This document shows positions 3,797 through 33,067 of a stretch of 64,000 nucleotides of DNA, one piece after another. The stretch is from Endozoicomonas numazuensis (lineage in GTDB: Bacteria; Pseudomonadota; Gammaproteobacteria; Pseudomonadales; Endozoicomonadaceae): positions 413,845 to 477,844 of the forward strand of contig NZ_JOKH01000001.1 in the NCBI RefSeq assembly GCF_000722635.1, given 5' to 3'. Numbering within the stretch: position 1 is the first letter of the stretch; the number at the start of each line of letters is the position of its first letter. The notes under the pieces are model-generated. The model saw only the letters and a program-made list of their open reading frames with translations, was not told the origin of the DNA and made no database searches. Both the position numbers and the translations under genes were made by a program.

Positions 3797-3801
3797 CAGC
3801 C

Positions 3802-4704: not shown

Positions 4705-5157
4705 ATGCTGTCGTTTAGAGCAATGACCCACCAGGACCTTCCAGAACTGGCTGCTATTGAACAGGAAGCCGGGCCACACCCCTGGAATCAGAAGCATTAT
4801 GTGGACAGTATTGACTCTGGCCACCTCTGCGCTGTGGCTGAGTACAAGGGCAAAATTGTAGCTCAGGGCGTTATCATGGCTGCAGCAGACGAAGCCAGCC
4901 TACTGATTTTAACTGTGGCACGTAAAGAGCAAGGCAAGGGTTATGGCTCCGCCATGCTGCAACATTTGATCGAATCTTCAGTTGAAAAGGCTGAAACCCT
5001 GTTTCTTGAAGTGCGGGAGTCCAACGAAAAAGCTTTTAACCTTTATCTCAATGCAGGTTTCAGTGAAATTGGCCGTCGTAACAACTATTACCCATCAGGA
5101 AAAGATCATAAATCCGAAGATGCCATAGTGATGGCTTTGGACCTCAAGCACTTTTGA
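4705..5157 (+). CDS. rimI: Ribosomal protein bS18 N-alpha-acetyltransferase
   Basis: A single GNAT domain of 150 residues. The acetyl-CoA loop is seen as VARKEQGKGYGSAML (about residues 72-86), and the RimI-type ending as LEVRESNEKAFNLYLNAGFSEIGRRNNYY, where NxxAxxLYxxxGF is the family signature. RimI acetylates the N-terminal alanine of ribosomal protein S18. It follows the holD-like gene by 90 bp in the conserved holD-rimI arrangement. Confidence 0.92.
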   Translation: MLSFRAMTHQDLPELAAIEQEAGPHPWNQKHYVDSIDSGHLCAVAEYKGKIVAQGVIMAAADEASLLILTVARKEQGKGYGSAMLQHLIESSVEKAETLFLEVRESNEKAFNLYLNAGFSEIGRRNNYYPSGKDHKSEDAIVMALDLKHF

Positions 5158-5180
5158 TACGTTACCCTGCACAGCATTGC

Positions 5181-14754: not shown

Positions 14755-15462
14755 TTATAGTTCAATGTTAAGAAAAGATGATTTACGTACGTAATGCCTG
14801 AGCTTATCCATAGCATTTGGAAACCACTTATCAAAACCTCTTGTTTCCCTGACCAGCTCATCAGCCAGTCTTGGGTTGTATAAGTCGTTATAAATAAAGC
14901 CCGCCAGTGAAGCATCATGATGTCTGAGTTTATCTATGGCAGCCTGAAGGTCTGTCTGGCGAGTCACTCCTGCCATCACCATCAGAATCGTGCCATCAAC
15001 CATGGCACAAATAGACTCAGCTGGAATATTGTTTCTGTTGATCGCCATGACTGGAGAAGTGTCAAACACCACCACATCGTAACGCTCTAACCAGTACTCC
15101 ATCAGTTTATTCATATTACTCAGGTTTCGAAACATGATGGCATCGGTATCACAAGGCGCTGGAAGTATATCTATATCAGCTTCATCGTCATGCATGATAC
15201 AACCATCAGCTGAACTGGGATTGGGTAACCAGTCAGTATGTAAATGACCTGACAAATCCCCTAACTCCGGGTGTAACAGGTTCACTTCAACCAACAGGGT
15301 ATGTTTACCATCTGCTTCACTTCGCTTGCTCATGGCATAAGCCATGGTGCTGCAGCCTTCACCAGGATTGGTAGACGTCACCGCCAGAGATCTCATTCCC
15401 CGCCCAATAGTATTGCCATAGACCTGCTCTACTTCCAGATAATTGATGGGAAGCTTGATCAT
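14755..15462 (-). CDS. BY-kinase/CpsD-like ATPase with altered P-loop (SypD position)
   Basis: A 235-residue MinD/CpsD-fold protein of the bacterial tyrosine-kinase type. The Walker A motif reads TNPGEGCST: the invariant Lys is replaced by Cys37. The Walker A' region (LLVEVNLLHPEL) has lost its usual Asp, while a Walker B-like VVVFDTSPV remains. The C-terminal tail (RHYVRKSSFLNIEL) has a single Tyr rather than a Tyr cluster. It follows the multi-SLBB export gene by 10 bp and corresponds in position to Vibrio fischeri sypD. Probably a non-catalytic partner of polymer export. The substitution is seen; loss of activity is inferred. Confidence 0.75.
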   Translation of the reverse strand: MIKLPINYLEVEQVYGNTIGRGMRSLAVTSTNPGEGCSTMAYAMSKRSEADGKHTLLVEVNLLHPELGDLSGHLHTDWLPNPSSADGCIMHDDEADIDILPAPCDTDAIMFRNLSNMNKLMEYWLERYDVVVFDTSPVMAINRNNIPAESICAMVDGTILMVMAGVTRQTDLQAAIDKLRHHDASLAGFIYNDLYNPRLADELVRETRGFDKWFPNAMDKLRHYVRKSSFLNIEL

Positions 15463-15472
15463 GTTACACCAC

Positions 15473-18292
15473 CTAGAGGGCTGAGCCCGATATCAGAGAC
15501 TTTGTCAGACTGACCAGCGAAACAATACTAAGTACATCTTTCAAGGCATCCATAAAGTAAGCAAACTGGGTATTGGATACATCTGGAATAAAAACCGTAT
15601 CTCCTGGCCTGATTACTGGCAGCCTGGAGGCGTCAGGGTTTTTCATAAAGCCTATAAGATCAAATGTGTGTGCCTGATTCTTATAATCTGAGGCATTTAC
15701 AATAATGATCTTTTCTATATAAGCTGTTTTGGTCGGCCCACCAGCCTCTGCCAGGAGATCAAGAATCGACATTTCGGAATTAAACTCGTAGCGACCACTT
15801 TTGTTCACAGCCCCTAGAATCCTTATTGTCTGCTCCTGTTTTTTCTCTACCCAGCTTCGGTTTCTGGAGGGAATAAAAATAGTATCTCCTACTTCGACGG
15901 AGGGCAGCAGTGTTTCATCGCCCGTTTCAAAGTAGTTAACCAGATTCAAGGTACTGACTCTGGGTGCAGATCCATTCCGATGAATGATTCGAACATTGGT
16001 CAGGTCCGCCTCATCTTTGGGACCTTCTGCTGCAGAAAGTATATCTAATAGATCAAGATGTTTGTTGAATGCATAACGACCTGGCGCAACCACTGACCCC
16101 ATAATATAAATGGATTGATCGCTGCTGAGTTTTACCCAATTGGCTTTATTATCGGTTGGACTCTCTGGTAACTCTGGAAAAACAATGGTCGACCCACCGG
16201 ACAGTTTGGGAAGAGAATCCCAGTTTCCGCCGTGGGCAAGAAAATGTTCCAGATTAAACTCACGACTGACTGCCTGACCACCTTTACCCGTTTCAATAAT
16301 CTTAACTCGGTTCAAGTCTGCTCTTTTATTGGGTCCGCCGGCATGAGCCAGCAGGTCCATAAAAGTGATCGTCTCGGAGTATTCATAGCGACCGGGTTTG
16401 GTAACAGCGCCGAGCAGATGAATGGATTTATTGGTGGGAAGCTTGAGCCATGTTCTATCTATCTCTGTTCCTTTTTCAGGGACAAAAATGGCATCTCCCG
16501 CCATGATTTTGGGCAGCTGAGCCCCATCACCTTCAGCATAGTCCTGCAAATTGAATCGAACTACATCACCATTGGTTCTGAGAATCCTGACCATCCGTGT
16601 ATCTGCATACCGATTAGGTCCACCGGCATTCGCAAGTACATCCAGAAACCCCACCTCTTCACCGGTTTCAAATGCACCAGGCTTCTGTACTTGCCCCATC
16701 ACATAAACGACCCTTCCCCCAAACTTAACAGCCTCTACCTGCTTGGGTACAAATACTGTTGCCCCTTTAGAGAGTTTTATTACTGCGTTCTCATCCCCCT
16801 GATCCAGATATTTCTTGAGGTCGAAGAGTTTTGCTTCGTTGTTATCTATAATCCTGATCTGCTCGACATTCGCATATCGTGTCACCCCTCCAGACCTTAG
16901 CAGGGCATCTACTACATTAATCCCTTCCTTAAATGGAAAAGTAGTTGGCCTGATAACTTCACCGAATACCTTAAGCGCATCTCTATCCTGAGTAGGGTCC
17001 ATTCCTTCAGTAGCACCCGGAGTAAAAGATTCACCATGTATATTACCTAATTGAGGTGATGATGGAATGAAGATGACATCAAGAGATTTCAAATCAGGTA
17101 TTAGAGCGGGGTTACCGGTATCAAGGTAGTGTTTATAGTTAAACTCTTTAGGCCCACCTTCCCTTCTGAGCTGCAACTTATCAAGTTGTGCTCCATCTCT
17201 GAGGCCACCTGCAGCGTTAATAGCTGTTTGGATATTCCCACTACTGGAAAGCTCGACTTCTCCAGGGTTATTAACATAACCCAGAACCGTCACCAGAAGT
17301 CTTTTTTCCTTTAACAACACTGAAAGCTTATCCAGTCCTAGGTAGGCTGTTGACAGCTTCTTATAGATAATATTCTCAGTCTCTCCAAGCGTTTTTCCAG
17401 CTACCTTATGCTGACCTACTTCAGGCAGACTGACCTCCCCTTCTCGGCTAATAAGGAACTCTTTGTTGAACCCGTCTTCACCCGGAAGATCGATTCTTAA
17501 AATATCACCAGGCTGCAATGTATAATCTTTTAAAACTTCAGTGGTGTTGTATTTTTCAAGCCCGCCCTGTGTAACTGCCTTGCTGCTGATTGCTTGAACA
17601 CCTTCGTTTTCAATAACTTTGGAATCAGCTGGTTGAATAGCCGCTTTTGTACCTCCGGCGGATTCTTTTTCTTTAATAGGCGCCTTAATTTTCTGAGCAG
17701 TTTTTTTGATTGCTTCTTTTTTCTTCTTTGCAACAGGCTTAGGCTCTGGAACACTTTCTTTAAGTACAACAGGGTCAGGAATCTTTTTTCTAGTCAGCGA
17801 TACCATAATGATATCCTTTCCCTGAACCTCAAACTTAGCCATATCATCCTGGAGAATGGCTTGCCTGTTTCCAGACCTGATGACTGAATAAGCAGGTAAG
17901 AATAACCGGTTTTCAAATAGCGGCAGAAAATGCTGAACTTTGGCAAGATCAGTATTCTTTGGTAACCAGTAACTCCCCGGCTCATCAAGATCTCCCAAGA
18001 AGGTAACCCTGATCATGTTAGTGGAGTCAATAAAATCGACCTTCGATGTTTGATAGGCCGATCCTAAGGATTCTTTAATTTTCTCTGATGCTTGAGATAC
18101 ACTTAGGCCTTCTAAATTAATAACATGACCATCACCCATAACAATGTGGGCACTTTCATTAATTGAGAGCAGGGGGTATTGAGGAACCCCTTCTTCAGAG
18201 TAAATGGCTACTCTTTTTCCAGGCTGCCATGCTTCTTCAGAAAAAGCTAATGAAGACACCATCATAAGTATTAGTAAAAGCACCTTATTCAC
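15473..18292 (-). CDS. Wza-like polysaccharide export protein with six SLBB domains (SypC position)
   Basis: About 939 residues from a GTG at 18292, chosen because AGGAG lies 8 bp before it and MNKVLLLILMM gives a proper signal peptide (ending LAFS). A Lys/Ala/Pro linker is at about residues 190-240. A polysaccharide-export (PES) domain begins at YTLQPGDILRIDLPG near residue 260. Six SLBB domains then follow in tandem, each starting like VxGxVxxPGxYxF and ending GDxIFIP. A short C-terminal hydrophobic helix could span the outer membrane, as in Wza. This is much longer than Wza (about 380 aa). It overlaps the upstream lipoprotein gene by 8 bp, implying translational coupling. Confidence 0.88.
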   Translation of the reverse strand: MNKVLLLILMMVSSLAFSEEAWQPGKRVAIYSEEGVPQYPLLSINESAHIVMGDGHVINLEGLSVSQASEKIKESLGSAYQTSKVDFIDSTNMIRVTFLGDLDEPGSYWLPKNTDLAKVQHFLPLFENRLFLPAYSVIRSGNRQAILQDDMAKFEVQGKDIIMVSLTRKKIPDPVVLKESVPEPKPVAKKKKEAIKKTAQKIKAPIKEKESAGGTKAAIQPADSKVIENEGVQAISSKAVTQGGLEKYNTTEVLKDYTLQPGDILRIDLPGEDGFNKEFLISREGEVSLPEVGQHKVAGKTLGETENIIYKKLSTAYLGLDKLSVLLKEKRLLVTVLGYVNNPGEVELSSSGNIQTAINAAGGLRDGAQLDKLQLRREGGPKEFNYKHYLDTGNPALIPDLKSLDVIFIPSSPQLGNIHGESFTPGATEGMDPTQDRDALKVFGEVIRPTTFPFKEGINVVDALLRSGGVTRYANVEQIRIIDNNEAKLFDLKKYLDQGDENAVIKLSKGATVFVPKQVEAVKFGGRVVYVMGQVQKPGAFETGEEVGFLDVLANAGGPNRYADTRMVRILRTNGDVVRFNLQDYAEGDGAQLPKIMAGDAIFVPEKGTEIDRTWLKLPTNKSIHLLGAVTKPGRYEYSETITFMDLLAHAGGPNKRADLNRVKIIETGKGGQAVSREFNLEHFLAHGGNWDSLPKLSGGSTIVFPELPESPTDNKANWVKLSSDQSIYIMGSVVAPGRYAFNKHLDLLDILSAAEGPKDEADLTNVRIIHRNGSAPRVSTLNLVNYFETGDETLLPSVEVGDTIFIPSRNRSWVEKKQEQTIRILGAVNKSGRYEFNSEMSILDLLAEAGGPTKTAYIEKIIIVNASDYKNQAHTFDLIGFMKNPDASRLPVIRPGDTVFIPDVSNTQFAYFMDALKDVLSIVSLVSLTKSLISGSAL

Positions 18293-19148
18293 TGGATGGA
18301 CTCCTGATGATGGTTGACTCAAGGTCAATAGAATCTCGCCACTCTCTTAATCTGTATTTTTTAATCTGCTTTCTTATATCTACTGAAAATGCAAGGCCAT
18401 CTGAACTAAGAAGTACCGGTGATAAAACACCCTTTTTATTTTCTATATTTCTGGTATTTATTCCCTTACTGGAAAAGTAATTAGTAATTTCATTCCCAGC
18501 ATTTTCATCTACTGAATAAATAGACAGGAATATTTCAGGATGATTCTCCATCGCGGAGTAAACCATCAATAGTCGTTTATGAAAGCCCACCGATATTTCA
18601 CCACTGGAACTTATCTGATCACATTCGCAGTTCAATGCGGCTGCCAACTCATGAGAGAAATCTTCTGAAGGTGTGTCTATGCCATTAAAACTCACAAAAC
18701 TATCCAGACATTCACTATTTTCAGAGAGGCTGGACATCAGCCTGTTCACATAATCCAACTGTTCCATAGCGGTGGCCACACTATACTGAGCATCCAGAAA
18801 CAGGCTGCCATCTATTTCCATTTTTGCTCTTCGTAAATAACTCCTCACCACTTTTATCTGACCTGGCATGCAATATTCAGCACCTTTATTGACAACAAAA
18901 GCCATTCTGGACTCTCCAATATCCCATAGGCTTTTCAGATAGGCCTGATCTACAGCTTCTGGTGTTTCGGGGTAGCGATCGGTAATACTGACCACACGCT
19001 CCGAATGATCTGGCCAGTGGTTGCACCCTGTGATAAATAAAATCATCAGACACAAAAAAGCCCTGCAGAAATGCTCTGCAGGGTTATGCAAGATTTGTAG
19101 TACTTGATCAAAAATTTTTTTAGAGGTTAGACAGATAATCTTCCACAT
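18285..19148 (-). CDS. Lipoprotein of the polysaccharide locus (SypB position)
   Basis: Contains a lipobox, MILFITGCNHW, so the mature protein is a lipoprotein of about 245 residues. The start is uncertain: ATG 19148 overlaps the STAS gene, TTG 19091 would give a 22-residue signal peptide, and the ATG at 19046 leaves too short a signal. The second half (from about FHKRLLMVY onward) has an alternation that faintly recalls an OmpA-like domain but lacks the standard NxxLSxxRA motif. V. fischeri SypB, an OmpA-family protein, holds this place between SypA and SypC. A strong terminator lies across the signal-peptide region. Confidence 0.6.
   Translation of the reverse strand: MWKIICLTSKKIFDQVLQILHNPAEHFCRAFLCLMILFITGCNHWPDHSERVVSITDRYPETPEAVDQAYLKSLWDIGESRMAFVVNKGAEYCMPGQIKVVRSYLRRAKMEIDGSLFLDAQYSVATAMEQLDYVNRLMSSLSENSECLDSFVSFNGIDTPSEDFSHELAAALNCECDQISSSGEISVGFHKRLLMVYSAMENHPEIFLSIYSVDENAGNEITNYFSSKGINTRNIENKKGVLSPVLLSSDGLAFSVDIRKQIKKYRLREWRDSIDLESTIIRSPSSE
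19054..19085 (-). terminator. Intrinsic terminator after the STAS gene, inside the next gene's 5' end
   Basis: On the minus strand: stem CCCTGCAGA / TCTGCAGGG with a GCATT loop, then CTTTTTT. It lies 35 bp past the STAS stop and inside the possible 5' coding region of the SypB-position lipoprotein. It should cut transcription between sypA-like and sypBCD-like genes, so expression of the latter would need read-through or coupling. Confidence 0.85.
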
Positions 19149-19452
19149 CATTATATTGCTTGATCGCCTGGTTGATTCGTAACATGCTAAGTAATTCATC
19201 TGGCTTCCCATTAACGCCAACTAAAGCCAGCTGCCTGTTTTCAATTTTTAACCGTTTATAAAGAAAGACAAGAGCACCAATACCTGAAGAATCAAGTTCT
19301 TTCACAGAACTCATATCAACCAGGACATCACCTGCACAATCTCTAATCAGATGATCGAAGTGAGATCTTACCGCATTAACAGTTTCGGCATTGAATTGAT
19401 CTGTCAGTGAGATAACATCGCATGACTGTGCATGCCAGGTTGCGTAATCCAT
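19120..19452 (-). CDS. STAS-domain protein, SypA-like anti-sigma-factor antagonist type
   Basis: A 110-residue single STAS domain. The signature VLVDMSSVKELDSSGIGAL puts the phosphorylatable serine of the DSSG motif at Ser55/Ser56. In V. fischeri, SypA is a STAS protein phosphorylated on Ser56 by SypE and needed for biofilm. Here it heads the left arm of a matching polysaccharide locus, but no SypE-like kinase/phosphatase gene is in the window. It is divergent from the GGDEF/EAL gene across a 461-bp AT-rich gap, and followed by a strong terminator. Confidence 0.85.
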   Translation of the reverse strand: MDYATWHAQSCDVISLTDQFNAETVNAVRSHFDHLIRDCAGDVLVDMSSVKELDSSGIGALVFLYKRLKIENRQLALVGVNGKPDELLSMLRINQAIKQYNDVEDYLSNL

Positions 19453-19913
19453 TACTTCCTACTCCTTAACTTTATTCATGGGCTTCTCAAACACAAAAAC
19501 CCAGACATCTTTTTTTTAAGACTAATTACCAGACTAGACAAGCATTAACTTAAAAGTCGGGTGTACTATACCCTTTAGAAATATCAGAATTAATTCAAAA
19601 TAATATTTCCTAATCAAAAAGCCTTTTTGACAATTTATCACCACTTTTTTTAAACAAAAATCAAATAAAAACACACTGCGACAATTATCTGATCTAATAA
19701 AAAACCTAATTAAAATCGTACTTAAAGATTACAATTTCGTATTAGTAGCTTGCTCTTAACTTCCTATAGTTAATCTCACAAGGATAATAAAAAGCTCTTT
19801 AAACAACATCCGGTTGTTACTAATTGCTTTCTCCTTTTTCATAAACAGCCAACCTCATTGAAGTCTGTCGTTGAAAAACGTTCTATGAATGGCATCGAAA
19901 GAAGTCAAAGAAT
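19453..19913. promoter_or_regulatory. AT-rich divergent regulatory region of the polysaccharide locus
   Basis: 461 bp with no convincing gene, between two divergently read arms. It is clearly more AT-rich than its surroundings, especially 19540-19740. It must hold promoters for both arms. I looked for a sigma-54 site (GG-n10-GC), because V. fischeri syp uses one through SypG, and found no good match. No long inverted repeat stands out. Confidence 0.5.
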
Positions 19914-21974
19914 ATGGAAACCAGCACAGGCATTGATGCTAAGCAACGCTTATCTGCCAAACTGCTTAAAGCCGTTCTTCTGGCAGCCTGTGTATTAGGC
20001 ATAGCAATCAGTTGTGTGCAGATTTTCATTGACGCTCGCCAGTCCAGTAAAAGTATTGATTCAGAAGCCCAACAAATGTTGGCAATGATCAGGGAATCTT
20101 CCATTCAGGCGGCTTATAGACTGGAACCCACTATGGGAGAAGAAATTCTTTCTGGTCTGATGGAGCACCAGTCCGTTCACGTAGCAGCTATCAAAATACC
20201 TGATGAGCCCGAACTGGCGGTCGTAGAACGAGGCCTTTCTACTTCACGGTATCGCCAGCTTTCTGACTATATTTTTGAGCCCATTCGTATTTATCGAATC
20301 CCTTTGTATAAAGAAGAGCCCTTTCATGAGTACTACGGTGAGCTACTTCTGGCTATTGATACTGCATACCATGGCAGAGAGTTTATTCTGCGCTCTCTGA
20401 TTGTTTTGGTCAGTGGCATATTCAGAGCCATCGCCATGGCGTTATTGCTCTATCTGATTTATTCATTAGTGCTTACCAAGCCTCTTAACCGGCTAATCAG
20501 AAACCTGTCACAGATTAACCCAGATGCTCCTGGCTCTCATAAGCTGCCTATGCCAAAAGGTCACCAGAACAATGAGCTGGGTCTATGGGTAAGAACAGCC
20601 AATCAACTATTGGAGTCCATTGAGAGAAACCTGAATTTAAGGCAAAAAGCTGAGGCTCAAATCATGAGATTGTCTCAGTATGATTACCTGACCCGTCTGC
20701 CAAACCGTAAAACGTTGCAAAAACATCTTCAAAGTCTGATCAACAACCCACTGAATTCAGATAGCAATATAGCCATTATCTGTCTGGGACTGGATGACTT
20801 CAAGTCCCTTAATGCTCAGTTCAACTTCAATGCAGCTGAACATGCACTGGTCAAAATTGCAGACCGCTTGAGAAATTACATCGGTAACAGAGCTTATATC
20901 GGACGTCTTGGAGAGGACCAGTTTGCAATCGTTCTCTCCAAAATCACCCAACCCTATGAAGCTGCAGAAATGGCCCAGACTCTTCTCAAGCAACTGACCA
21001 GGCCGATTCTGGTGAACGATGAAAAAATAACCATTAGCGGTACTGTGGGCATTACGCTTTATCCTGACGATGGTCAGGAAGTAGACAACCTCTTGCAGCA
21101 GGCAGAATTCGCTATGATTATGGCCAAATCCAGAAGCCATAACCGTTATCAATTCTATATTGCAACGATCGATACTGAGATCCGGCAGCGTAAAAAACTT
21201 GAAATGGATCTCCATGAAGCTCTGGAACACCATGAATTGAGCTTGGTATATCAACCTCAAATTGACTTCAAAACATCTCAAATGGTCGGAGCAGAAGCTT
21301 TGCTTAGGTGGAAGCACCCCGAGAAAGGGCTTATTTCACCAGAAATGTTTATCCCCATGGCAGAAAGCAACCTGGATATTATTCCCATAGGGGACTGGGT
21401 TCTCGAATCTGCCTGCCACCAACTCCATGAATGGCGTCAGAATGGATTTAGTGATTTAAGGATTGCCGTTAACCTTTCAGCCATTCAACTACGAGATAAA
21501 AACATTGTTGATCGCATCAACTATTTGCTGAACAAATACCAGATACCGCCACAGCGGCTTGAAATTGAAGTGACAGAAACCTGCATTATGGAAGATATCG
21601 AGCTTTCATCCGAGCAGCTCAATAAGATCAAGGCAACGGGCATTACACTAGCATTGGATGATTTCGGTACCGGCTACTCTTCTCTGAGCTATCTAAAGCA
21701 GTTTCCATTCGACAAGTTGAAAATTGATAAAACGTTTGTTGAAGATTTGCCAGCAAATAAAGAAAACACTGTGATTGTTGAAGCCATCATTCAACTAGGT
21801 CGCAGCTTTGGTATTGAGGTCATCGCAGAAGGTGTAGAAACCAGAGAACAGGAAACACACCTTATTAACTCGGGATGCACAGAAGGCCAAGGATACTTTT
21901 ACAGCAAGCCCATTCCTGAAAAAGAGTTTGCTGAGTTCCTGAGAGCCTGGAAAAACAAACCTGCAAATTCCTGA
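19914..21974 (+). CDS. Membrane GGDEF/EAL protein, likely c-di-GMP phosphodiesterase
   Basis: 686 residues: TM helix (about 18-38), a periplasmic region of about 110 residues, a second TM (about 158-182), a HAMP-like stretch, a GGDEF domain (about 255-410) and an EAL domain (about 430-680). The GGDEF signature is degenerate (GEDQF, residues 333-337), so cyclase activity is doubtful. The EAL side is complete: EALLRW from E461, VNLSAIQL, EVTETCIM, LALDDFGTGYSSL, LKIDKTFV, IAEGVET and GQGYFYSKP. It opens the right arm of the polysaccharide operon, 11 bp before a GT4 gene. It probably links c-di-GMP to polysaccharide output. Confidence 0.92.
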   Translation: METSTGIDAKQRLSAKLLKAVLLAACVLGIAISCVQIFIDARQSSKSIDSEAQQMLAMIRESSIQAAYRLEPTMGEEILSGLMEHQSVHVAAIKIPDEPELAVVERGLSTSRYRQLSDYIFEPIRIYRIPLYKEEPFHEYYGELLLAIDTAYHGREFILRSLIVLVSGIFRAIAMALLLYLIYSLVLTKPLNRLIRNLSQINPDAPGSHKLPMPKGHQNNELGLWVRTANQLLESIERNLNLRQKAEAQIMRLSQYDYLTRLPNRKTLQKHLQSLINNPLNSDSNIAIICLGLDDFKSLNAQFNFNAAEHALVKIADRLRNYIGNRAYIGRLGEDQFAIVLSKITQPYEAAEMAQTLLKQLTRPILVNDEKITISGTVGITLYPDDGQEVDNLLQQAEFAMIMAKSRSHNRYQFYIATIDTEIRQRKKLEMDLHEALEHHELSLVYQPQIDFKTSQMVGAEALLRWKHPEKGLISPEMFIPMAESNLDIIPIGDWVLESACHQLHEWRQNGFSDLRIAVNLSAIQLRDKNIVDRINYLLNKYQIPPQRLEIEVTETCIMEDIELSSEQLNKIKATGITLALDDFGTGYSSLSYLKQFPFDKLKIDKTFVEDLPANKENTVIVEAIIQLGRSFGIEVIAEGVETREQETHLINSGCTEGQGYFYSKPIPEKEFAEFLRAWKNKPANS

Positions 21975-21985
21975 GGGACCCGTTA

Positions 21986-23068: not shown

Positions 23069-23072
23069 CGAA

Positions 23073-24500: not shown

Positions 24501-24517
24501 GATTATAGAGAGAAATT

Positions 24518-26017
24518 ATGCAGGGGCCGGTTCTAGAAAGGATATTCGCTAACAAACACCAAACGATGGTGGCCTGCATCTATTGTATTCTGGCCGCTTT
24601 GCCCGCCCTGCTGTTTCCTCACCCTATTGCTCTGATTCCGCTGGCAGCCATACCACTGGGCCTGATTTTTATTTTAAAGAAGCCTTTTGTTGTTGTACTG
24701 ATTTTCATCATGTTCTCTTTCTTCCGGCTTCATGAAGTTTTTCCCCAGCTGGATCCAATCAAAATCCCCATGCTGACAGCTCTGGGATCCTATTTCGTTT
24801 TGGGCTGGCACATTGTTCTGACCCGAAAAGTAAAAATGTACTGGCGACACGAACACACTGCCTTTGCCCGATTCTTCGGCTGGGTTGTACTGGGTATTGC
24901 TTTTTCCAGTCATCCACCCAGTGCTTTTGGTAGCTTTACCAGCGTCTATGTGAAGATTGGCATAATGGTTCTGGCTATATCTTGGCTAATGACTGAACAC
25001 TGGCACTTCAAACTGGCCCACTTTCTGATTATTTGCTCTGGGCTGGCCGTCGGCTATGTCACTCTATACAACAATGCCAATGGCATCGGTATGGTGGAAG
25101 AAACCCGTGTCACCATTCCTGGCACCAGTCTGGGCGATCCTAATGACCTTTCTCTAGTACTGAGCTTCCCGATGAGTTATGCCATTGCTTTTGCGGTAAC
25201 CCGGGGAACGGGCAGAATTAGAACATTGCTTGGCATTGCTGGATTTATTATTTTTGTATCTTCTATCATTGCTACCCAGAGTCGTGGAGGACTTCTGGCC
25301 ACTGTCGCAGTTATGGGGATATTTGGCCTGAGAATCATCAAGTCAAAACTACTACTGATCAGTATTTGCAGCTTTAGCTTGATGATTCTGGTCGCTGCAG
25401 CAGGTATCAATGACCGTAAGTCAGGTGGTGCGGCAGAAAAAGGTGTAGATGCGTCTGCGATGGGTCGTATTCATGCCTGGGAAGCTGCCTTTTTCATGGG
25501 ATTGAAAAACCCTATGACAGGTGTAGGTCTCTCTTTGTTCCTTGATAACTATTGGGATTACGCGACCCATAGTCGTGCAGAAGGGCAGGCTCATGTGACC
25601 CACAGCACCTGGTTTCAAGTGCTGGCAGAAGCTGGTTTTTTTGGACTGGGACTCTTTGTATTCCTGATTTTCAGTATTTTCATGTCTATTCGCTCGTCAC
25701 TGGACAGACTCGACAGGAATAGAGGTTCGCCGGAATATGACCCTCATTTAACAGCAATAACCGTTGGCACCTATGCAGGCCTGGTAGGTTTCTGCGTTTC
25801 AGGAAGCTTTCTCAGCCAGGGCTTCTTATGGCCTATCTACATTATTACTTCGATTAGTATTGCTATTGCCAACTATATGGATACCTATCACCCAGAGAAA
25901 GCAGAAGGGGAAAAAGGGTCTATAGTTAAAAAATCAAGGAAGTCCAACAATTCGTTTATAGACGGCAAGGATAAGCCCAATGATCAACAGCCTGAAAAAC
26001 TGGCTGAAGTCCGGTAA
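24518..26017 (+). CDS. O-antigen ligase/Wzy-family polymerase (SypL-like)
   Basis: A 499-residue membrane protein with around 11 hydrophobic segments and a periplasmic loop in the second half. That loop carries DASAMGRIHAWEAAFFMG and NPMTGVGLSLFLDNY, then HVTHSTWFQVLAEAGFFGL, the Wzy_C (O-antigen ligase/polymerase) pattern. In this context it likely polymerises repeat units. The cytoplasmic C-terminal tail is charged (Lys/Glu/Asn). The next gene starts 38 bp before its stop. Confidence 0.85.
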   Translation: MQGPVLERIFANKHQTMVACIYCILAALPALLFPHPIALIPLAAIPLGLIFILKKPFVVVLIFIMFSFFRLHEVFPQLDPIKIPMLTALGSYFVLGWHIVLTRKVKMYWRHEHTAFARFFGWVVLGIAFSSHPPSAFGSFTSVYVKIGIMVLAISWLMTEHWHFKLAHFLIICSGLAVGYVTLYNNANGIGMVEETRVTIPGTSLGDPNDLSLVLSFPMSYAIAFAVTRGTGRIRTLLGIAGFIIFVSSIIATQSRGGLLATVAVMGIFGLRIIKSKLLLISICSFSLMILVAAAGINDRKSGGAAEKGVDASAMGRIHAWEAAFFMGLKNPMTGVGLSLFLDNYWDYATHSRAEGQAHVTHSTWFQVLAEAGFFGLGLFVFLIFSIFMSIRSSLDRLDRNRGSPEYDPHLTAITVGTYAGLVGFCVSGSFLSQGFLWPIYIITSISIAIANYMDTYHPEKAEGEKGSIVKKSRKSNNSFIDGKDKPNDQQPEKLAEVR

Positions 26018-26705
26018 CTCACCGATCGCTAGATTTATTTTTTCAACCTTAAAAGCGATCCGTTACTTCGAATTTCCTCTTATACGACCACTGCATAGCC
26101 TTTTGTATCATCTTCATAAAATGATAACGGGCTTCTTTGCCAGTATTGGTCGTGCCCTTTACTGGACTCCTCTCTTTAAAAGTCGCCTTAAAAATAATCC
26201 CAAACGTCTGTATGTTTATTCTGGTATGCCCCTGTTGCTGGGTCCCCTTTCTATCACCTTCGGCGATAACTGCCGAATCTCTGGCCATTCTACAATCAGT
26301 GGCCGGGCTTCGAGTGTTGAAGCACCCTCCCTCAAAATAGGCGACAACGTTGGTATCAGCTGGCAAAACGAAATATTTGTAGGAAGAAAGATTGAAATCG
26401 GCAATAACGTCCGACTGGCAGTAAAAGTACGCCTTGTTGGCTATCCAGGGCACCCCGTAGATCCGATTGACAGGGCTAAAGGGTTACCAGATACCGATGA
26501 TCAGGTTGGCGATATCATTATTGAAGACAATGTCTGGCTGGCTGCTGGAGTCACAGTAATGGGTGGTGTCCGAATAGGCGCCGGAACCATAGTAGCCTCA
26601 GGCAGCGTTGTCACAAAAGACCTGCCAGCAGGAGTTCTGGCAGGAGGCATTCCAGCCAAAGTGATCAAGTCTCTTGATCACCAAAAAGAAAGCTTGGAGG
26701 CTTGA
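25980..26705 (+). CDS. Hexapeptide-repeat acyltransferase (SypM-like)
   Basis: A 241-residue protein with a left-handed beta-helix C-terminal domain: NCRISGHSTISGR, IGDNVGISWQNEIFVG, IGNNVRLAVKVRLVG and IIEDNVWLAAGVTVMGGVRI with the terminal ASGSVVTKDLPAGVLAGGIPAKV signature. These are acetyltransferases of the NodL/CysE/MaT superfamily, which here would O- or N-acetylate the polymer. The start ATG overlaps the polymerase gene and has an AAGGAT ribosome site. The N-terminal 60 residues are basic and aromatic and may sit on the membrane. Confidence 0.87.
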   Translation: MINSLKNWLKSGNSPIARFIFSTLKAIRYFEFPLIRPLHSLLYHLHKMITGFFASIGRALYWTPLFKSRLKNNPKRLYVYSGMPLLLGPLSITFGDNCRISGHSTISGRASSVEAPSLKIGDNVGISWQNEIFVGRKIEIGNNVRLAVKVRLVGYPGHPVDPIDRAKGLPDTDDQVGDIIIEDNVWLAAGVTVMGGVRIGAGTIVASGSVVTKDLPAGVLAGGIPAKVIKSLDHQKESLEA

Positions 26706-26706
26706 T

Positions 26707-27873
26707 ATGGCTGATCTGGTGGTGTTTGGAGAAGACTGGGGTGGCCTGCCATCCAGTACCCAACATTTAATCAGGCATCTGCTGACACGGCACCGTGTCA
26801 TCTGGATCAATTCGATAGGTATGCGCAGCCCGGGCCTGAATAAAAAGGACATGCAACGGATTGTTCTCAAAGCAAAAAGTATGCTTAAGAGAACCAATGT
26901 TCTTACTGAAGATATCAGTGAAGGCCCATCCCCTATTATTCTCAGTCCCAAAGTTATCCCTTTTCATAATCTGTCCATCGTTCGCCAGTTTAATAAAAAC
27001 CAGCTGGTCAAAGACATCCGCGAAGCCTGTAAAGAACACGGATTTAAAGACATTATTCTATGGACATCTCTGCCGACAGCTGTCGACGTAGTTGGCTCTT
27101 TAAATGAAAAAGCTTCGATTTACTATTGTGGTGATGACTTTAATACTCTGGATGGCGTCGATCATTCGACCGTAAACCCGATGGAGCGGGAGTTGGCAGA
27201 TAAGGTGGATCTGATTCTGGTAGTCAGTAAGGAGCTTGCTGAAAAGCTGCCTGGCCCTTCCACAGTGATGTTCCCTCACGGAGTTGATTATGACCTGTTC
27301 TCCTCTCCTCGTTCTCACCCTGGAGACTTTCCAAGGCAGGGACCTGTTGCCGGCTTTTATGGCAGTATTTCAGAATGGCTCAATGTTGAAATGCTGACTC
27401 AGGCAGCAACAGCCTTACCCGGCTGGCAATTCGTTTTTGTCGGAACCATAAAAACCGATGTTGGTGCTCTAAGAGAGATACCGAATGTGCATTTTCTTGG
27501 GCCAAGACCGCACTCTAAACTCCCTGCTTATGTTCAGAACTGGGACGTTGCCATGCTGCCTTTCTGCCATAACCGCCAGATAGAAGCCTGTAACCCACTG
27601 AAATTAAGAGAGTATCTGGCTTCTGGCACAGCAATAGCTTCTACAGATTTCCCTGCTGTCAGAGTTTACGACTCAGAAGTCACTATCCAGAGTCACAGAG
27701 AGCCTTTTTCCAGGACTATTCAGCGAGCATATGATCAAAAAGAAGCAATAGAAAATCGACGTGCCGCAGTAAGAAACGAATCCTGGGAAAGTAGAGCCGC
27801 TCAGTTGGAAGAATTGATCGATCATCTGGCCAACCGACAATCCCGTTTTCCTGAAAGGCTCAGTGAGAGCTAA
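26707..27873 (+). CDS. Glycosyltransferase, GT-B fold (SypN-like)
   Basis: About 388 residues from ATG 26707, which has GGAGG at about 26696-26700; an in-frame ATG at 26674 lies inside the acyltransferase gene. The protein opens LVVFGEDWGGLPSSTQHL, has SIYYCGDDFNTLDGVDHS in the linker, VAGFYGSISEWLNVEML as the start of the second lobe, and CNPLKLREYLASGTAIASTDFPAV in the donor site. These features fit GT4-like transferases that place a sugar on a lipid-linked oligosaccharide. It is one base past the previous stop, within the operon. Confidence 0.85.
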   Translation: MADLVVFGEDWGGLPSSTQHLIRHLLTRHRVIWINSIGMRSPGLNKKDMQRIVLKAKSMLKRTNVLTEDISEGPSPIILSPKVIPFHNLSIVRQFNKNQLVKDIREACKEHGFKDIILWTSLPTAVDVVGSLNEKASIYYCGDDFNTLDGVDHSTVNPMERELADKVDLILVVSKELAEKLPGPSTVMFPHGVDYDLFSSPRSHPGDFPRQGPVAGFYGSISEWLNVEMLTQAATALPGWQFVFVGTIKTDVGALREIPNVHFLGPRPHSKLPAYVQNWDVAMLPFCHNRQIEACNPLKLREYLASGTAIASTDFPAVRVYDSEVTIQSHREPFSRTIQRAYDQKEAIENRRAAVRNESWESRAAQLEELIDHLANRQSRFPERLSES

Positions 27874-28034
27874 ACATCTACAATGAGATAAAGCTGGTAA
27901 TAAATCAGGTAAAGCTGGACTGTTAAAATAACAGCACTGACGACATTTGTTGCTTTATTTCAGCTGATTTGTTTGAAGAATGACAGCACTCCTTTTGGCA
28001 AGGATAAATAAGGGAGTTCAACAGGGAAGTGGAT

Positions 28035-28535
28035 GTGAACAGGGTTCCAACAATCAAACTCTCAACACTATGGCTTTTATCACTAATGGCCATTCTTTCT
28101 GGTTGTGCCAGCCAGCCTCCCGCCCCCCTTGAAAAATTATTAACCGAGCAGCCTCCCCAAACTGAAGAAGAATTAATCGGCGCTATAGAGAAATTACGCT
28201 CGGAATCCAAAGAGTTGACGATATCAAACAACATGTATCGACGTCAGCTTTCACTGAATTATGAAGAAGATGCCAATCATATTTCTGATCATCAGAAAAA
28301 AGTCATCAAACTGTTTTTCCAGACTCTGCCAGACCGGGATAATCTGAGCATTATTCTGTCCATCTCCCCTTCCTCAGATGAAGGTTTTAACTCCATTAAT
28401 GATGCCTGGGTCAGAGTCCAGGAACTAAGAAGCTATCTGCAGGACTATTCCGTTCAGATAGAAGAACTCTACATACCTGATCAGGAACCCGATACGGTCA
28501 CTATTCAGGTTTTAGGAGGTGACAGTGTCCAATGA
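28035..28535 (+). CDS. Small lipoprotein preceding the chain-length gene
   Basis: About 166 residues from a GTG at 28035, preferred over GTG 28029 because AGGGA lies about 8 bp upstream. The signal peptide ends in the lipobox AILSGCASQP. A Pro/Glu-rich spacer and a helix follow, then a domain (about 70-166) with LSIILSISPSS, INDAWVRVQELRSYL and VQIEELYIP that vaguely resembles OmpA/MotB-type folds. Its place between the sypN-like and sypO-like genes is an addition relative to the V. fischeri order. It may pair with the chain-length protein across the periplasm. Function unknown. Confidence 0.6.
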   Translation: MNRVPTIKLSTLWLLSLMAILSGCASQPPAPLEKLLTEQPPQTEEELIGAIEKLRSESKELTISNNMYRRQLSLNYEEDANHISDHQKKVIKLFFQTLPDRDNLSIILSISPSSDEGFNSINDAWVRVQELRSYLQDYSVQIEELYIPDQEPDTVTIQVLGGDSVQ

Positions 28536-30021
28536 TGTACTGAGAAACCTCTTAAGATTACTGGCTATTGCCTGGCGAAGGCGATACATGATTGTTGTGC
28601 CAATGCTGATCATGCCCTTTATTGGCTTATTTGCCAGCTTTCTTGCCCCCAAGTTTTATGAAGCTCATACAACAATCCTTCTTCAGGACACCAGTGAGCT
28701 AAACCCTATTCTTGAAGACTTTTCTCTGTCGACCAGCCTTGAAGAGCGTCAGTCTGCTCTGAAAATCCTGCTAAAAAGCCGAAATGTACTGGGCGCCGTA
28801 GCCAGAGACTTGGGTTACATTACAGATCAATCCACCGAAGAAGACATAGACAAGCAGATTCAGGAACTCTCACGATCGCTGTCTATCGTATTTGGCGGTG
28901 AGTTAATCAAGATATATTACCGCTCTGAAAATCGCACTGATATTGCTTTTTTACTCGAAACGGTGACAAAGCATTTTTTGTCTATTGTTCTTGCCCCTCA
29001 TAAATCCTGGACCACGACCTCAGAAGACTTTCTGAAAAATCAGCTGCAGAGGCAACGTGGAGCACTGAACGGAGCTGAAGAAAAGCTTGCTGATTATAAA
29101 GCTCAATACGCTCTTGAATTACCCCAGCTTCATAAAGCCAACATCACACGTCTGGCTGAACTCAGACAGTTACTCATGGAAAAGAAAACAGATCTTGCTG
29201 GCGCAGAAGCCGCCTTGAATGAGTTCAATAACAACCTTACTCAAACGAACCCAGTGATTGGCAAGCTGGAGGAGAGGTTAATACAGGTAAGGGCTGACCT
29301 AAGCATGCTTCGTTTCCGTTACACGGAACAACACAGCAGAGTACAAGCGTCCCTTCGAGAACTTGAAAGACTCGAAAGCGAACGAAAAAGAATGATCAAT
29401 GAAACCAGTCAGCTTAAACCAGAAGACATTAAGCGATTATGGAATCTAGCGGCAACAGCTCCAACCCATATAGACGAAACCAGAAACAGCTCAACCACTA
29501 TTCTTGCCTCACAATTACAAGCCGTTCAGGAAGCCAACGCCAAAGTGATCAGTTTGCAAAATGAAGTAGAAAGCATCAAAAGCATAGCGTTGGAGATGGA
29601 AAATAAGGTGACGTCATTTGCCCAGGTTGAAAGGCACCTGATTGAGTTACAGCGCGACTATGACATCAAGATGAAACTCTACGAAGACTTCCTTCAGCGC
29701 TACGAAATGGCGCGAGTTTCAGGAGATCTGGGTCGATATGAGGAGCTTGAAAGAATCAAAGTCATCGATGAACCTTTCACTCCCAGTAAACCAAATGCCC
29801 TACCCTCTATTTTGTTTGTAGTCGCCGGATTCTTTGCAGGCATCGGTATTGGTACAGGTCTCACCGCCATCGCCGAAATTTCTGACACCAGCCTCAGACT
29901 GAGAGAAACACTTGAAACCATGACCGGCGTTCCTGTGATCACCCGAATACCAGCAATGCCACAGGCTCTTTGCCTGACTTACAGCCCGGAAACCGATACC
30001 TTCTCAGGAGAGGCCACATGA
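28525..30021 (+). CDS. Wzz/GumC-type chain-length protein without kinase domain (SypO-like)
   Basis: About 498 residues, from a GTG at 28525 with an AGGAGGT ribosome site. A cytoplasmic start and TM1 (about residues 20-40) precede a long periplasmic coiled coil (about 165-370, rich in Leu/Glu/Arg/Gln), then TM2 (about 425-447) after the KPNALPSI motif (PxP-like region before TM2). The C-terminus ends about 40 residues later. There is no Walker A/B domain, so it is a polysaccharide co-polymerase of the PCP type whose ATPase partner, if any, is separate. It overlaps the lipoprotein gene by 11 bp. Confidence 0.87.
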   Translation: MSNDVLRNLLRLLAIAWRRRYMIVVPMLIMPFIGLFASFLAPKFYEAHTTILLQDTSELNPILEDFSLSTSLEERQSALKILLKSRNVLGAVARDLGYITDQSTEEDIDKQIQELSRSLSIVFGGELIKIYYRSENRTDIAFLLETVTKHFLSIVLAPHKSWTTTSEDFLKNQLQRQRGALNGAEEKLADYKAQYALELPQLHKANITRLAELRQLLMEKKTDLAGAEAALNEFNNNLTQTNPVIGKLEERLIQVRADLSMLRFRYTEQHSRVQASLRELERLESERKRMINETSQLKPEDIKRLWNLAATAPTHIDETRNSSTTILASQLQAVQEANAKVISLQNEVESIKSIALEMENKVTSFAQVERHLIELQRDYDIKMKLYEDFLQRYEMARVSGDLGRYEELERIKVIDEPFTPSKPNALPSILFVVAGFFAGIGIGTGLTAIAEISDTSLRLRETLETMTGVPVITRIPAMPQALCLTYSPETDTFSGEAT

Positions 30022-31109
30022 GCCAGAAGTTTGTTGTTGCTCAGATTGTTCAACACCTTGCGCCTGGCGGGATCGAAACCATGGTTCTCGACCTTCAAAG
30101 AAGGGCGCCAAATCCTGAAAGAGTTCACATCATCAGCCTTGAAGGTGATCTGCACGCAGCTCGAAATCACTGGCCCCGTCTAGAAAATGTACCAAGGCTG
30201 CATTTCATGGACAAACAGCCAGGTATTCAGTTCAGTGATATCAAAAAGCTCGCAGACCTGCTCAAGTCTCTTGACGTCAATGTTGTTCACACTCATCACG
30301 TTGGGCCCATGCTTTATGGAGGCATAGCTGCCAAACTGGCTTCATGCCGACACGTGCATACTGAGCACGACGCCTGGCACCTTGCCAATCTCAAAAGAAG
30401 GTTGCTGGTAGGCAGCTTTTTCCATCTATTCCAACCAGCAGTCGTGGCTGATGCAGAGCTGGTTGCAGCCAGTATCAGACAATATATTCCTTTGTTTAAA
30501 CCATCCGTAGTCATGAACGGAATTGATACTGAACGCTTTCAGCCCGGCGATCAGAAACATGCGCGAAACCAATTATCTCTCCCTCAAGATGTTCCTATCA
30601 TTGGCTGCGCTGCAAGACTGACTGCGGTGAAAGCCCACGATGTTCTTATCTCTGCTTTTTCGAAACTGTCGCCTGACTGTCATTTGGCGCTAGCTGGCGG
30701 TGGTGAGCTTGAAAATAATTTGAAGGAACAGACTACTTACCTTGGAATTGAGAAGAGGGTGCACTTTCTGGATGTTGTCGAAGATATGCCAAATTTCTTC
30801 CATGCCATCGATGTCTTTTGTCTTGCATCTCTTCGGGAAGGCCTCCCTCTTTCGCCGCTGGAAGCCCAGGCCTGTGGCAGGAATGTCGTGCTGACAGATG
30901 TTGGTGGCTGCAGCGAAGCTGTCGCACCGGAAGGAATGCTGGTTAAAGCAGGGGATCAAGAGGCACTGTCGCAGGCATTGGCTGGACAGATTAAAAAAGG
31001 GTGCACTGAAAAAGCTCGAAATAGCGCCAGAGAGTTCGTGGTGCAAAAGGGCAATTTAACCAGAATGATTGATCAATACGTTCAGCTGTATGAGGGAGGA
31101 AAGCTGTAA
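30018..31109 (+). CDS. Glycosyltransferase family 4 (SypP-like)
   Basis: 363 residues from ATG 30018, which overlaps the previous stop (ATGA). An upstream in-frame ATG at 29970 would overlap more and lacks a ribosome site. The protein has an N-terminal HLAPGGIETMVLDLQ motif, VHTHHVGPMLYGG, VMNGIDTERF, and the donor site IGCAARLTAVKAHDVLISAF followed by REGLPLSPLEAQACGRNVVLTD (E-x7-E type). It adds a sugar in repeat-unit assembly. Donor unknown. Confidence 0.9.
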   Translation: MSQKFVVAQIVQHLAPGGIETMVLDLQRRAPNPERVHIISLEGDLHAARNHWPRLENVPRLHFMDKQPGIQFSDIKKLADLLKSLDVNVVHTHHVGPMLYGGIAAKLASCRHVHTEHDAWHLANLKRRLLVGSFFHLFQPAVVADAELVAASIRQYIPLFKPSVVMNGIDTERFQPGDQKHARNQLSLPQDVPIIGCAARLTAVKAHDVLISAFSKLSPDCHLALAGGGELENNLKEQTTYLGIEKRVHFLDVVEDMPNFFHAIDVFCLASLREGLPLSPLEAQACGRNVVLTDVGGCSEAVAPEGMLVKAGDQEALSQALAGQIKKGCTEKARNSAREFVVQKGNLTRMIDQYVQLYEGGKL

Positions 31110-32326
31110 TGGAATGGCTGTTGTTGTCCGTATTTCTGATAGCATCCTTCATCGTAATCTATCATCACGTAGGTTATCCAGTCGCTCTCAAGTGGCTGGC
31201 CAAACGAGGTCAGACAACGCCTCCGCCATACTATCATCGTCACTACCGGATCAGCCCTCTGGACCATATGTTGCCCAGAATTTGTCTGATCATGCCTGCT
31301 CATAATGAAGCGGCGGTCATCACTGATAAAATTCATAACCTCGGCGCTATTGATTATCCAGAGAACAAGTTAAAAATCATTATCGTTTGTGACGGCTGTA
31401 CTGATGATACTGCTGAGCTGTCACGAAGGGCTGCCAGCCAGATAGAAAACTGTCATCTTGATATCGAAGTCGTTGAGAAACCCCAAAATTGTGGGAAAGT
31501 TGCCGTTCTTAATGAAGCCATCAGCTTGTGTCAATGTGATGTAGTTGCTCTATCTGACATTTCAGCACTGCTCTCTACCGATAGCCTCCTTATCGCTGCC
31601 GCACAGCTCAGTTATGAAGAAACCGGGGTTGTCTGTGGCAGTTATCATTTCTTCCACTCACTGAGCGTTGGTGAGCAGGCCTACTGGCGCTATCAGAGAC
31701 AAATAAAAACTCAGGAAAGCTCATTGGGTGCCACTCTGGGCGTACACGGGGCTTTCTACGCTTTTCGCCGTCGTCTGTTCGAAGAACTGCCACCTGATAC
31801 CATCAATGATGATTTCACCCTCCCCGTCAGCATTGTCATGCAGGGTTACCAATGCCTGTACGATGAAAGGATCATGGCCGTGGAACTTGAACAAGCTTGC
31901 AATGAAATGGACTTCAGCCGACGCAAAAGAATTGCCGCTGGCAATGTCCAACAGGCCATTCGTCATATCGGTTTACTGCATCCGAGGTTTGGCAGGATTG
32001 CTTTCAACTTCTTTTCTGGAAAGTTCCTGAGACCATTAATGCCCGTGTTTTTCACCCTTGTCTTACTCTCATCTGCCTTACTTATAAAGCACTATCCCAT
32101 TTTCATACCAATATTCATTGCCCAACTGGCCGTCTACATCTTCACAGTATTTTTTATACTGTTTAAAAAGCAACCGAACTGGAAACTGGCCAGGATCGTT
32201 TATTACATAATGTCCGGACATATTGCGATGGCGATAGGGCTGGTTCGATACCTGACCGGTTTGGAATCTGGACAGTGGAAAAAAGTGACCAGTAAAGACA
32301 AAAGGAGTCGGGCTGTACAAAACTGA
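31109..32326 (+). CDS. Glycosyltransferase family 2, membrane-bound (SypQ-like)
   Basis: 405 residues. An N-terminal TM helix (about 2-20) is followed by a GT2 (GT-A fold) domain: ICLIMPAHNEAAVITDKI, IIIVCDGCTDDTAEL and VVALSDISALLS (D-x-D-like), then TLGVHGAFYAFRR and NDDFTLPVSIVMQGYQCLYDE. At the end are the Q/RxxRW-like region (NVQQAIRH) and two to three C-terminal TM helices. This is the architecture of processive or membrane GT2 enzymes. The start shares one base with the previous stop. Confidence 0.88.
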   Translation: MEWLLLSVFLIASFIVIYHHVGYPVALKWLAKRGQTTPPPYYHRHYRISPLDHMLPRICLIMPAHNEAAVITDKIHNLGAIDYPENKLKIIIVCDGCTDDTAELSRRAASQIENCHLDIEVVEKPQNCGKVAVLNEAISLCQCDVVALSDISALLSTDSLLIAAAQLSYEETGVVCGSYHFFHSLSVGEQAYWRYQRQIKTQESSLGATLGVHGAFYAFRRRLFEELPPDTINDDFTLPVSIVMQGYQCLYDERIMAVELEQACNEMDFSRRKRIAAGNVQQAIRHIGLLHPRFGRIAFNFFSGKFLRPLMPVFFTLVLLSSALLIKHYPIFIPIFIAQLAVYIFTVFFILFKKQPNWKLARIVYYIMSGHIAMAIGLVRYLTGLESGQWKKVTSKDKRSRAVQN

Positions 32327-32425
32327 TTGTGACAGCCAGAAGCAGTAAGGGGATGTAGTTGGCATGCTCTGTAGTTATCCGGAGTAAAAACCGGAGATAA
32401 AAACGATGTACCAAGGAGTAGGACC

Positions 32426-33067
32426 ATGAAAGATGTAACTTATGTTCACCCTATTACTGCACTCGGTAAAAGGGTAATGGACATATCTCTGGCTGTGATA
32501 GGCATTATTCTCACACTGCCTCTCTATCCCTTCATTGCCATAGCTATAAGACTGGACAGCCCTGGTCCGGTTTTTTATCGGCAAATGCGCATTGGCTATC
32601 AAAGAGAAAACTATGTAAGCCTCTTTTTGATGACCAAATTCCGAACGATGAGTGCCGACGCTGAGGCCAAAAGCGGCCCTGTATGGGCTGCAAAGAATGA
32701 TCCCAGAGTCACTAAAGTAGGACATTTTCTTCGTAAGACTCGCCTGGATGAATTGCCTCAACTCTGGAATGTACTCATGGGTGATATGTCCATCGTGGGT
32801 CCCAGACCTGAAAGACCGGGTATGTGCCATAAGCTGGAAGATAATATCCCGTTTTATACCGAAAGGACTTTTGATGTGGTTCCAGGTATTACAGGGCTGG
32901 CCCAAGTTAACCTGAGCTACGATGAAACCATCGATGATGTGAGAAACAAAGTAGCTTATGACCATGCTTATGCATTGTCATTAAGCAGTCCGGCCGACTG
33001 GTTAAAAATGGACTTTACCATTATGTTCAAGACTATGTGGGTCATGGTAAAAGGCAAAGGACAATAG
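32426..33067 (+). CDS. Undecaprenyl-phosphate sugar phosphotransferase (SypR-like)
   Basis: Starts the repeat unit by moving a sugar-1-phosphate to undecaprenyl phosphate at the inner membrane. The 213-residue length equals the catalytic core of the WbaP/PglC (monotopic phosphoglycosyl transferase) family without the extra N-terminal helices. One reentrant membrane helix (about 16-38) is followed by KFRTM, LRKTRLDELPQLWNVLMGDMSIVGPRPERPG (two motifs in one run) and a C-terminal DWLKMDFTIMFKTMW. It is the last gene of the right arm, and a hairpin overlaps its stop. Confidence 0.92.
   Translation: MKDVTYVHPITALGKRVMDISLAVIGIILTLPLYPFIAIAIRLDSPGPVFYRQMRIGYQRENYVSLFLMTKFRTMSADAEAKSGPVWAAKNDPRVTKVGHFLRKTRLDELPQLWNVLMGDMSIVGPRPERPGMCHKLEDNIPFYTERTFDVVPGITGLAQVNLSYDETIDDVRNKVAYDHAYALSLSSPADWLKMDFTIMFKTMWVMVKGKGQ

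Follow-up and report, generated by a model that had tools for sequence, protein, structure and literature searches.

How might the syp polysaccharide machinery be controlled where its regulators are missing from the locus? The syp polysaccharide decides the entry of Vibrio fischeri into its squid host, and control of the syp genes by SypF and SypG with sigma-54 is a model of symbiosis signalling. The question is raised by a stretch of 64,000 nucleotides (hereafter the window; G000:C1:413845-477844) from the 6.34-Mb genome of a marine and probably animal-associated bacterium. The family to which the locus belongs, probably Endozoicomonas-like, is marine and often host-associated, and appears to keep the syp machine without the SypF/G-sigma-54 control; judging by gene anatomy, half of this machine would be transcribed behind a phosphodiesterase gene. 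If this is true, another symbiosis operates the same colonization matrix with a different switch. The locus therefore bears on a possible c-di-GMP brake within a syp operon and on a possible action of SypA on that brake.

The locus consists of two divergent arms, parted by an intergenic region of 461 bases (19453..19913). The left arm, on the minus strand, encodes relatives of SypA, SypB, SypC and SypD: a protein of 110 amino acids with a single STAS domain (SypA, 19120..19452; Pfam STAS, reciprocal best hits at 37-40% identity, DSSG phosphosite and LYKRL kept), a lipoprotein with a degenerate OmpA-like domain (SypB, 18285..19220; weak reciprocal best hits, hhalign 97.7%, E 2.3e-12), a polysaccharide export/SLBB protein of 951 amino acids (SypC, 15473..18328; Pfam Poly_export and SLBB, reciprocal best hits at 46-49% over about 680 amino acids) and a BY-kinase-like protein of 235 amino acids (SypD, 14755..15462; reciprocal best hits with V. 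penaeicida, V. diabolicus and Psychromonas, hhalign 100%, E 5e-46).

The right arm, on the plus strand, opens with a GGDEF/EAL gene, discussed below. It continues with a GT4 glycosyltransferase related to SypH (21986..23068), a MOP-type flippase at the SypK position (23073..24500; Pfam PF13440, 230 bits), a Wzy-like polymerase with a Wzy_C domain related to SypL (24518..26017; reciprocal best hits at 40-44% with V. diabolicus and Psychromonas), a hexapeptide acyltransferase related to SypM (25980..26705; 51-53%) and a glycosyltransferase related to SypN (26674..27873; 41-44%). A lipoprotein gene of 168 codons follows (28029..28535), which is common to the family, absent from Vibrio syp and without a Pfam match above cut-off. 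The arm ends with a Wzz-type chain-length protein (SypO, 28519..30021; reciprocal best hits at 40-41%), a second GT4 enzyme (SypP, 29970..31109; 40-45%), a GT2 enzyme (SypQ, 31109..32326; 44-47%, also the query of a class-wide search) and an initiating sugar-phosphate transferase (SypR, 32426..33067; 49-60%, Pfam Bac_transf). From the STAS arm through the Bac_transf gene ending at 33067, these positions and gene classes agree with the original prediction. An Rfam scan of 11500-34500 returned 0 matches.

Orthology identifies the locus. Ordered reciprocal best hits were obtained for 12 different syp genes (A, B, C, D, H, L, M, N, O, P, Q and R), 11 of them in each comparison with V. penaeicida, V. 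diabolicus and Psychromonas aquimarina; these hits are reciprocal within the compared loci, and full tables cover these three of six named species other than V. fischeri. The one gene missing from each comparison is accounted for: the Psychromonas stretch does not extend to H, V. diabolicus has no M, and an ORF for L was not seen in the V. penaeicida stretch. Gene order is kept within each arm, far beyond chance. The order A-D, H, L-R, as tested on these three species, is like that of V. fischeri syp and of the scv/rbd loci of V. parahaemolyticus and V. vulnificus, and genes for the STAS switch protein, export, chain length and the initiating transferase are present as in Vibrio syp/scv. As predicted, then, the locus is by sequence a syp/scv-type, Wzx/Wzy-dependent polysaccharide locus. 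An unrelated exopolysaccharide cluster could have been suspected, as these enzyme classes are common to polysaccharide clusters generally and neither the flippase nor the extra lipoprotein has a match in Vibrio syp, but the 12 ordered hits include the STAS gene, and SypC is the sole match at E<=1e-30 in each of the six named genomes, which makes such a cluster extremely unlikely. Nor is it a cluster of the Pel or cellulose type.

The 13 matching steps of the original prediction need revision: twelve genes stand as ordered best hits, but the first glycosyltransferase is not SypJ, the flippase is not SypK-like, the extra lipoprotein had gone unmentioned and the arms are divergent. Reciprocal best hits of that first glycosyltransferase point to SypH (41% over 335 amino acids in V. 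penaeicida, 38% in V. diabolicus). No match to Vibrio SypJ was found in the locus at E<=1e-5, and the cross-hits of Vibrio SypI, to other glycosyltransferase genes of the locus, are all weak. The flippase has no reciprocal BLAST hit to SypK, and hhalign gives the pair a profile-profile probability of 0.2%. Vibrio SypK itself scores 41 bits to PF13440 and both flippases match Polysacc_synt models; the window protein shares the MOP superfamily with SypK but shows no specific relation to it. Compared to Vibrio syp, the locus has no SypE, F, G, I or J, a different flippase and an extra lipoprotein before sypO, together with a degenerate SypB, an N-terminally extended SypC and a phosphodiesterase gene between its arms. 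The arms are transcribed in opposite directions, whereas in V. penaeicida genes A to H all lie on one strand.

Several of the proteins are themselves unusual. The SypB relative is weakly matched by BLAST (E 5.6e-5, 1.1e-6 and 1e-3) and its true start is uncertain, the ORF beginning at a TTG inside the STAS gene. Thirteen residues are missing where the OmpA domain has its conserved RA..V helix; Pfam OmpA goes undetected, while V. penaeicida SypB matches it at 72 bits. We interpret this protein as a degenerate, diverged form of SypB/scvB; an AlphaFold model of it, with a mean pLDDT of 54, played no part in this reading. The 168-residue lipoprotein was also considered as an OmpA homologue, which neither profile comparison nor Pfam supports. 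At its N-terminus, the SypC relative is longer by about 265 residues, which include a basic linker and are lacking in the Vibrio SypC proteins of 700-706 amino acids. In SypD, the position of the Walker A lysine is occupied by C (GEGCST). Judged by the Walker A consensus, the lysine is missing in 22 of 22 SypD rows, Vibrio and Psychromonas included; SypD may therefore be inactive as a kinase. The SypM relative has no match in 4 of 19 family loci (G005, G007, G010 and G419).

A class-wide search with SypQ gave at least 44% identity in 4 of 369 genomes besides that of the window, and the phosphodiesterase was not seen in these four, whose contigs were short. That Endozoicomonas carries syp-type loci is already in print: Liu et al. 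(2022, PMC8941931) reported scv/syp loci there and in 27 further genera. Their Endozoicomonas scv loci very probably are the same locus as ours. In E. elysicola and E. numazuensis, they noted two polysaccharide-synthesis domains in the flippase, and they described Endozoicomonas as lacking scvB, whereas we find a diverged SypB relative. The main text of that paper makes no mention of GGDEF, although its supplementary tables may list the central gene. In the literature searched on Endozoicomonas syp, polysaccharide, biofilm or c-di-GMP, we found no description of the enzyme between the arms or of a loss of SypG control.

The absence of sypE, sypF and sypG from the locus, also predicted originally, is borne out: neither the window nor any of six family loci (L063, L066, L070, L071, L232 and L234) gave a match to one of the three at E<=1e-5. 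In V. penaeicida, SypE, SypF and SypG sit between D and H. A search elsewhere in the genome for SypE and SypG, which the original prediction had proposed, yielded no clear orthologue of either. The best SypE match, at 27% identity, is a REC-PP2C protein without the kinase part, and the best two SypG matches are near-equal NtrC-type proteins at 38% and 39%; as yardsticks, two Vibrio SypG proteins share 68% identity, and 51% is found in another gammaproteobacterium (L260). The locus is syp-type by its synthesis genes and not by its regulation, and we therefore class it as a variant. SypE and SypF do not define the wider syp/scv family, since both are missing in V. parahaemolyticus too (PMC8941931); sypE is missing from V. 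vulnificus as well as V. parahaemolyticus (PMC4517449).

We also compared promoter regions. In the named Vibrio and Psychromonas loci, sigma-54-like sites scoring 9-11 of 11 precede sypA (3 of 3), sypI (2 of 2) and sypP (2 of 2), and the V. penaeicida region before sypM scores 9. In 15 family intergenic regions between the STAS and enzyme genes, the best score is 7 of 11, and the best in the window is 5. The scan is loose, with 2.5 16-mers scoring at least 9 expected per shuffled 20 kb; the window locus holds three such 16-mers, all inside genes, and the lipoprotein gene begins 405 bases after one of these. These observations bear on whether SypE, SypF and SypG have moved rather than been lost, with an NtrC-type activator working in trans through sigma-54 sites that escape detection by a simple consensus. 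The genome does encode six NtrC-type matches over the AAA region, as well as REC-PP2C proteins. However, none of these matches stands out as SypG, and the 15 divergent promoters lack a high-scoring site while the same scan finds the Vibrio ones, so that we regard a displaced activator as decidedly improbable.

Two gene sets outside the locus deserve mention. REC-PP2C, STAS and RsbW-type kinase genes lie in a row in L226 (G000:C7:80001-90000, positions 4396-6371), forming a complete partner-switch set. In L227 (G000:C1:57001-65000, positions 3454-5184), a REC-PP2C gene is followed by that of a STAS-like protein with DSTSLG instead of DSSG.

The c-di-GMP enzyme announced between the arms by the original prediction is a membrane protein of 686 amino acids (19914..21974, plus strand), with GGDEF and EAL domains recognized by Pfam and by motif alignment. 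Besides 28 family orthologues, the alignment of 29 rows includes G025. Reading LGEDQF in the window protein, the GGDEF motif is degenerate in 28 of 28 readable rows (LGEDQF, LGGDQF, LGEDRF or LSEDRF); an active diguanylate cyclase is ruled out by this degeneration. The EAL residues E461, N520, E552, D582/D583, K603 and E639, which we take to be catalytic in the window enzyme, are kept in 28 of 28 readable rows. Given a degenerate GGDEF motif and an intact EAL set, the protein is predicted to be a membrane c-di-GMP phosphodiesterase, which would degrade rather than make the messenger. The NCBIfam HmsP model NF008807 aligns over residues 13-673, nearly the whole protein, which recalls the HmsP/PdeK-type membrane phosphodiesterases, but the score of 351.5 bits is far under the equivalog cut-off of 733, and locus and polysaccharide differ from those of HmsP.

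A phosphodiesterase tied to syp has a precedent in BinA, whose gene presumably lies next to sypR in V. fischeri. BinA is a phosphodiesterase with a non-conserved GGDEF motif, is induced by SypG and is reported to act on cellulose biofilms (PMC4646962). The window enzyme resembles it in the non-conserved GGDEF motif and the link to syp; however, BinA has a GAF domain where the window enzyme has a membrane/periplasmic N-terminus. In V. penaeicida, the EAL gene directly after sypR matches the window enzyme over the EAL part only (31%, 264 amino acids), a comparison that gives no indication of orthology with BinA. Genes of the EAL or GGDEF-EAL type occur near the sypR end in two of the six named loci, V. 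sagamiensis (L116, 14408-15892) and V. penaeicida (L114, 11998-12756), which suggests that c-di-GMP enzymes beside syp may recur.

A synteny survey in relatives, likewise proposed originally, showed the same layout at the same address. The enzyme is present in 28 of 38 family genomes (E<=1e-130), and in 19 of these 28 both arms surround it, at one address between sanA and cofD; among the 19, the locus of G016 is on two contigs, and in G417 the left arm is irregular and the contig ends within the locus. The enzyme reading frame is broken in two of the 19 syp-bearing loci (G005 and G420), possibly by sequencing error. Two further genomes (G013 and G018) have a split layout, in which K-R are separated from the enzyme and sypH, and these two genes have no left arm next to them. 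In the remaining seven, the enzyme stands without a working syp set. It is alone at the address in G002, G015 and G020. In G003 and G004, it is accompanied by the STAS gene and by a SypR without the glutamate of the DE pair (DKLPQ, 2 of 21 rows), a pair that we assume to be important in SypR. In G001 and G009, the N-terminus of the enzyme is different, and it is accompanied by the STAS gene and by SypN and SypQ relatives, the SypQ relative having lost catalytic residues. Seven of the ten family genomes lacking the enzyme were searched for SypQ, with no match better than E 1e-4. In a tree of the enzyme, from which G005 and G420 were left out because of their broken frames and which drew long-branch warnings, G000 and G006, which bear syp, form a group with G002-G004 (98/96). 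This grouping suggests a loss in G002-G004.

The intergenic region contains a promoter-like element, CTATAGTTAA, at 19764-19773 on the plus strand, about 150 bases before the enzyme start. It resembles an extended -10 element, and presumably those of RpoS type. With at most one mismatch allowed, 23 of 29 upstream regions carry it 102-175 bases before the enzyme start, and in 18 of these the copy is exact; exact rows were matched by 0-4 of 500 shuffles and one-mismatch rows by 25-41 of 500. At that distance the element was not found upstream in G011, which has a full syp locus, nor in G013, G018, G001, G009 and G025. Because the predicted starts of G001 and G009 lie further upstream, the element appears in their alignment at a different distance. 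The element also precedes the enzyme in at least five genomes without syp (G002, G003, G004, G015 and G020).

How, then, may the locus be controlled? The reading that we favor, with little more than even confidence, is that of a syp/scv-type locus with rewired control, in which the phosphodiesterase serves as a built-in brake or dispersal timer. The enzyme and sypH are 11 bases apart in the window, and the aligned gap is 4-43 bases in all 20 loci holding both; this arrangement makes their co-transcription likely. The right-arm synthesis genes would then be transcribed from the phosphodiesterase promoter, so that polysaccharide machinery and c-di-GMP-lowering enzyme would rise together. In V. 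fischeri, c-di-GMP is needed for the SYP biofilm and acts after transcription, and overproduction of a phosphodiesterase left sypA promoter activity unchanged (PMC8546588). Because c-di-GMP promotes the biofilm at this late level, the enzyme could act as a brake, gated by what its periplasmic sensor part detects. The c-di-GMP network of the genome is small, with six GGDEF matches, two of them with a canonical motif, and two PilZ matches, and one phosphodiesterase could therefore weigh much. The original prediction suggested direct c-di-GMP control, but Pfam and NCBIfam report no PilZ or other c-di-GMP receptor domain in the locus proteins. SypA would in turn be set by a serine kinase and a phosphatase encoded elsewhere, for which the REC-PP2C/STAS/RsbW-type operon of L226 is a candidate.

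Against the brake model, the phosphodiesterase stands without syp in 7 of 28 genomes: its job may be unrelated to syp. The broken enzyme frames of G005 and G420, the missing element in G011, G013, G018 and G025, the high-scoring sigma-54-like 16-mers within coding sequence, the lack of a receptor domain among the locus proteins and the reported action of BinA on cellulose biofilms also count against it. The original prediction saw in the GGDEF/EAL protein a replacement for the SypE/F/G regulators. We could not sustain this, because the gene, and in at least five genomes the element, also occur without syp; the enzyme gene is probably a resident of the site, with syp lying around it, and did not arise as a dedicated stand-in for these regulators. 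The syp arms might then merely flank a housekeeping phosphodiesterase and be regulated otherwise. This alternative is a serious one, if rather unlikely in our judgement. In its favor, the enzyme keeps the same address in the seven genomes without working syp, and its dN/dS between G000 and G004 is below that of the neighboring sanA (0.045 versus 0.068). On the other hand, the enzyme directly precedes sypH in every locus holding both, across the genera of the family, and no alternative promoter was identified.

The rewired-control reading leaves SypA with partners encoded elsewhere, but its partner may also be much closer. In V. fischeri, SypA works with its serine unphosphorylated and needs K67 and R68, its mechanism being described as unknown (PMC4517449). 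Our SypA alignment has DSSG in 22 of 23 rows and a KR pair of the LYKRL type in 21 of 23. SypA might bind the divergently encoded phosphodiesterase, the partner switch setting local c-di-GMP and hence polysaccharide output. We consider this improbable. The STAS and enzyme genes are still together in four of the seven genomes without working syp (G001, G003, G004 and G009), both intact in G001 and G009 despite a dS that is saturated or near it, and Pseudomonas offers a known case, HsbA-HsbD, in which a STAS protein meets a diguanylate cyclase (PMC5085249). However, the enzyme occurs without STAS in three genomes (G002, G015 and G020), and between G003 and G004 the STAS gene evolves fast (dN/dS 0.365 versus 0.128 for sanA), the G004 protein having lost the serine (DPSG); these two pairs may thus be decaying remnants. 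Only with slight confidence can we propose the c-di-GMP phosphodiesterase as the target of SypA, which would bind and gate the enzyme according to its serine phosphorylation, in an old module that in G001 and G009 would have outlived the loss or enzymatic death of the polysaccharide genes. If true, such a reading would name a target for SypA.

As to G003 and G004, we had also considered a retained STAS-enzyme-SypR control core; this idea is weakened by the loss of the SypR glutamate and by dN/dS values that are raised for SypR as well as for STAS. The syp address of G009 and G001 holds a compact relict (L074, 2216-7490, and L075, 2021-6706, respectively), whose frames are open though dS is about 2 or saturated, as if they were kept for another job.

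Finally, type III secretion genes adjoin the syp locus: SctC, SctV, SctJ and a TyeA-like gatekeeper are encoded at 35785-37950, 38938-41025, 61039-61863 and 63048-63974 of the window. SctC adjoins cofD or glpD in several relatives, and a transposase gene of the IS1380 family lies amid the type III secretion genes, at 42253-43590.
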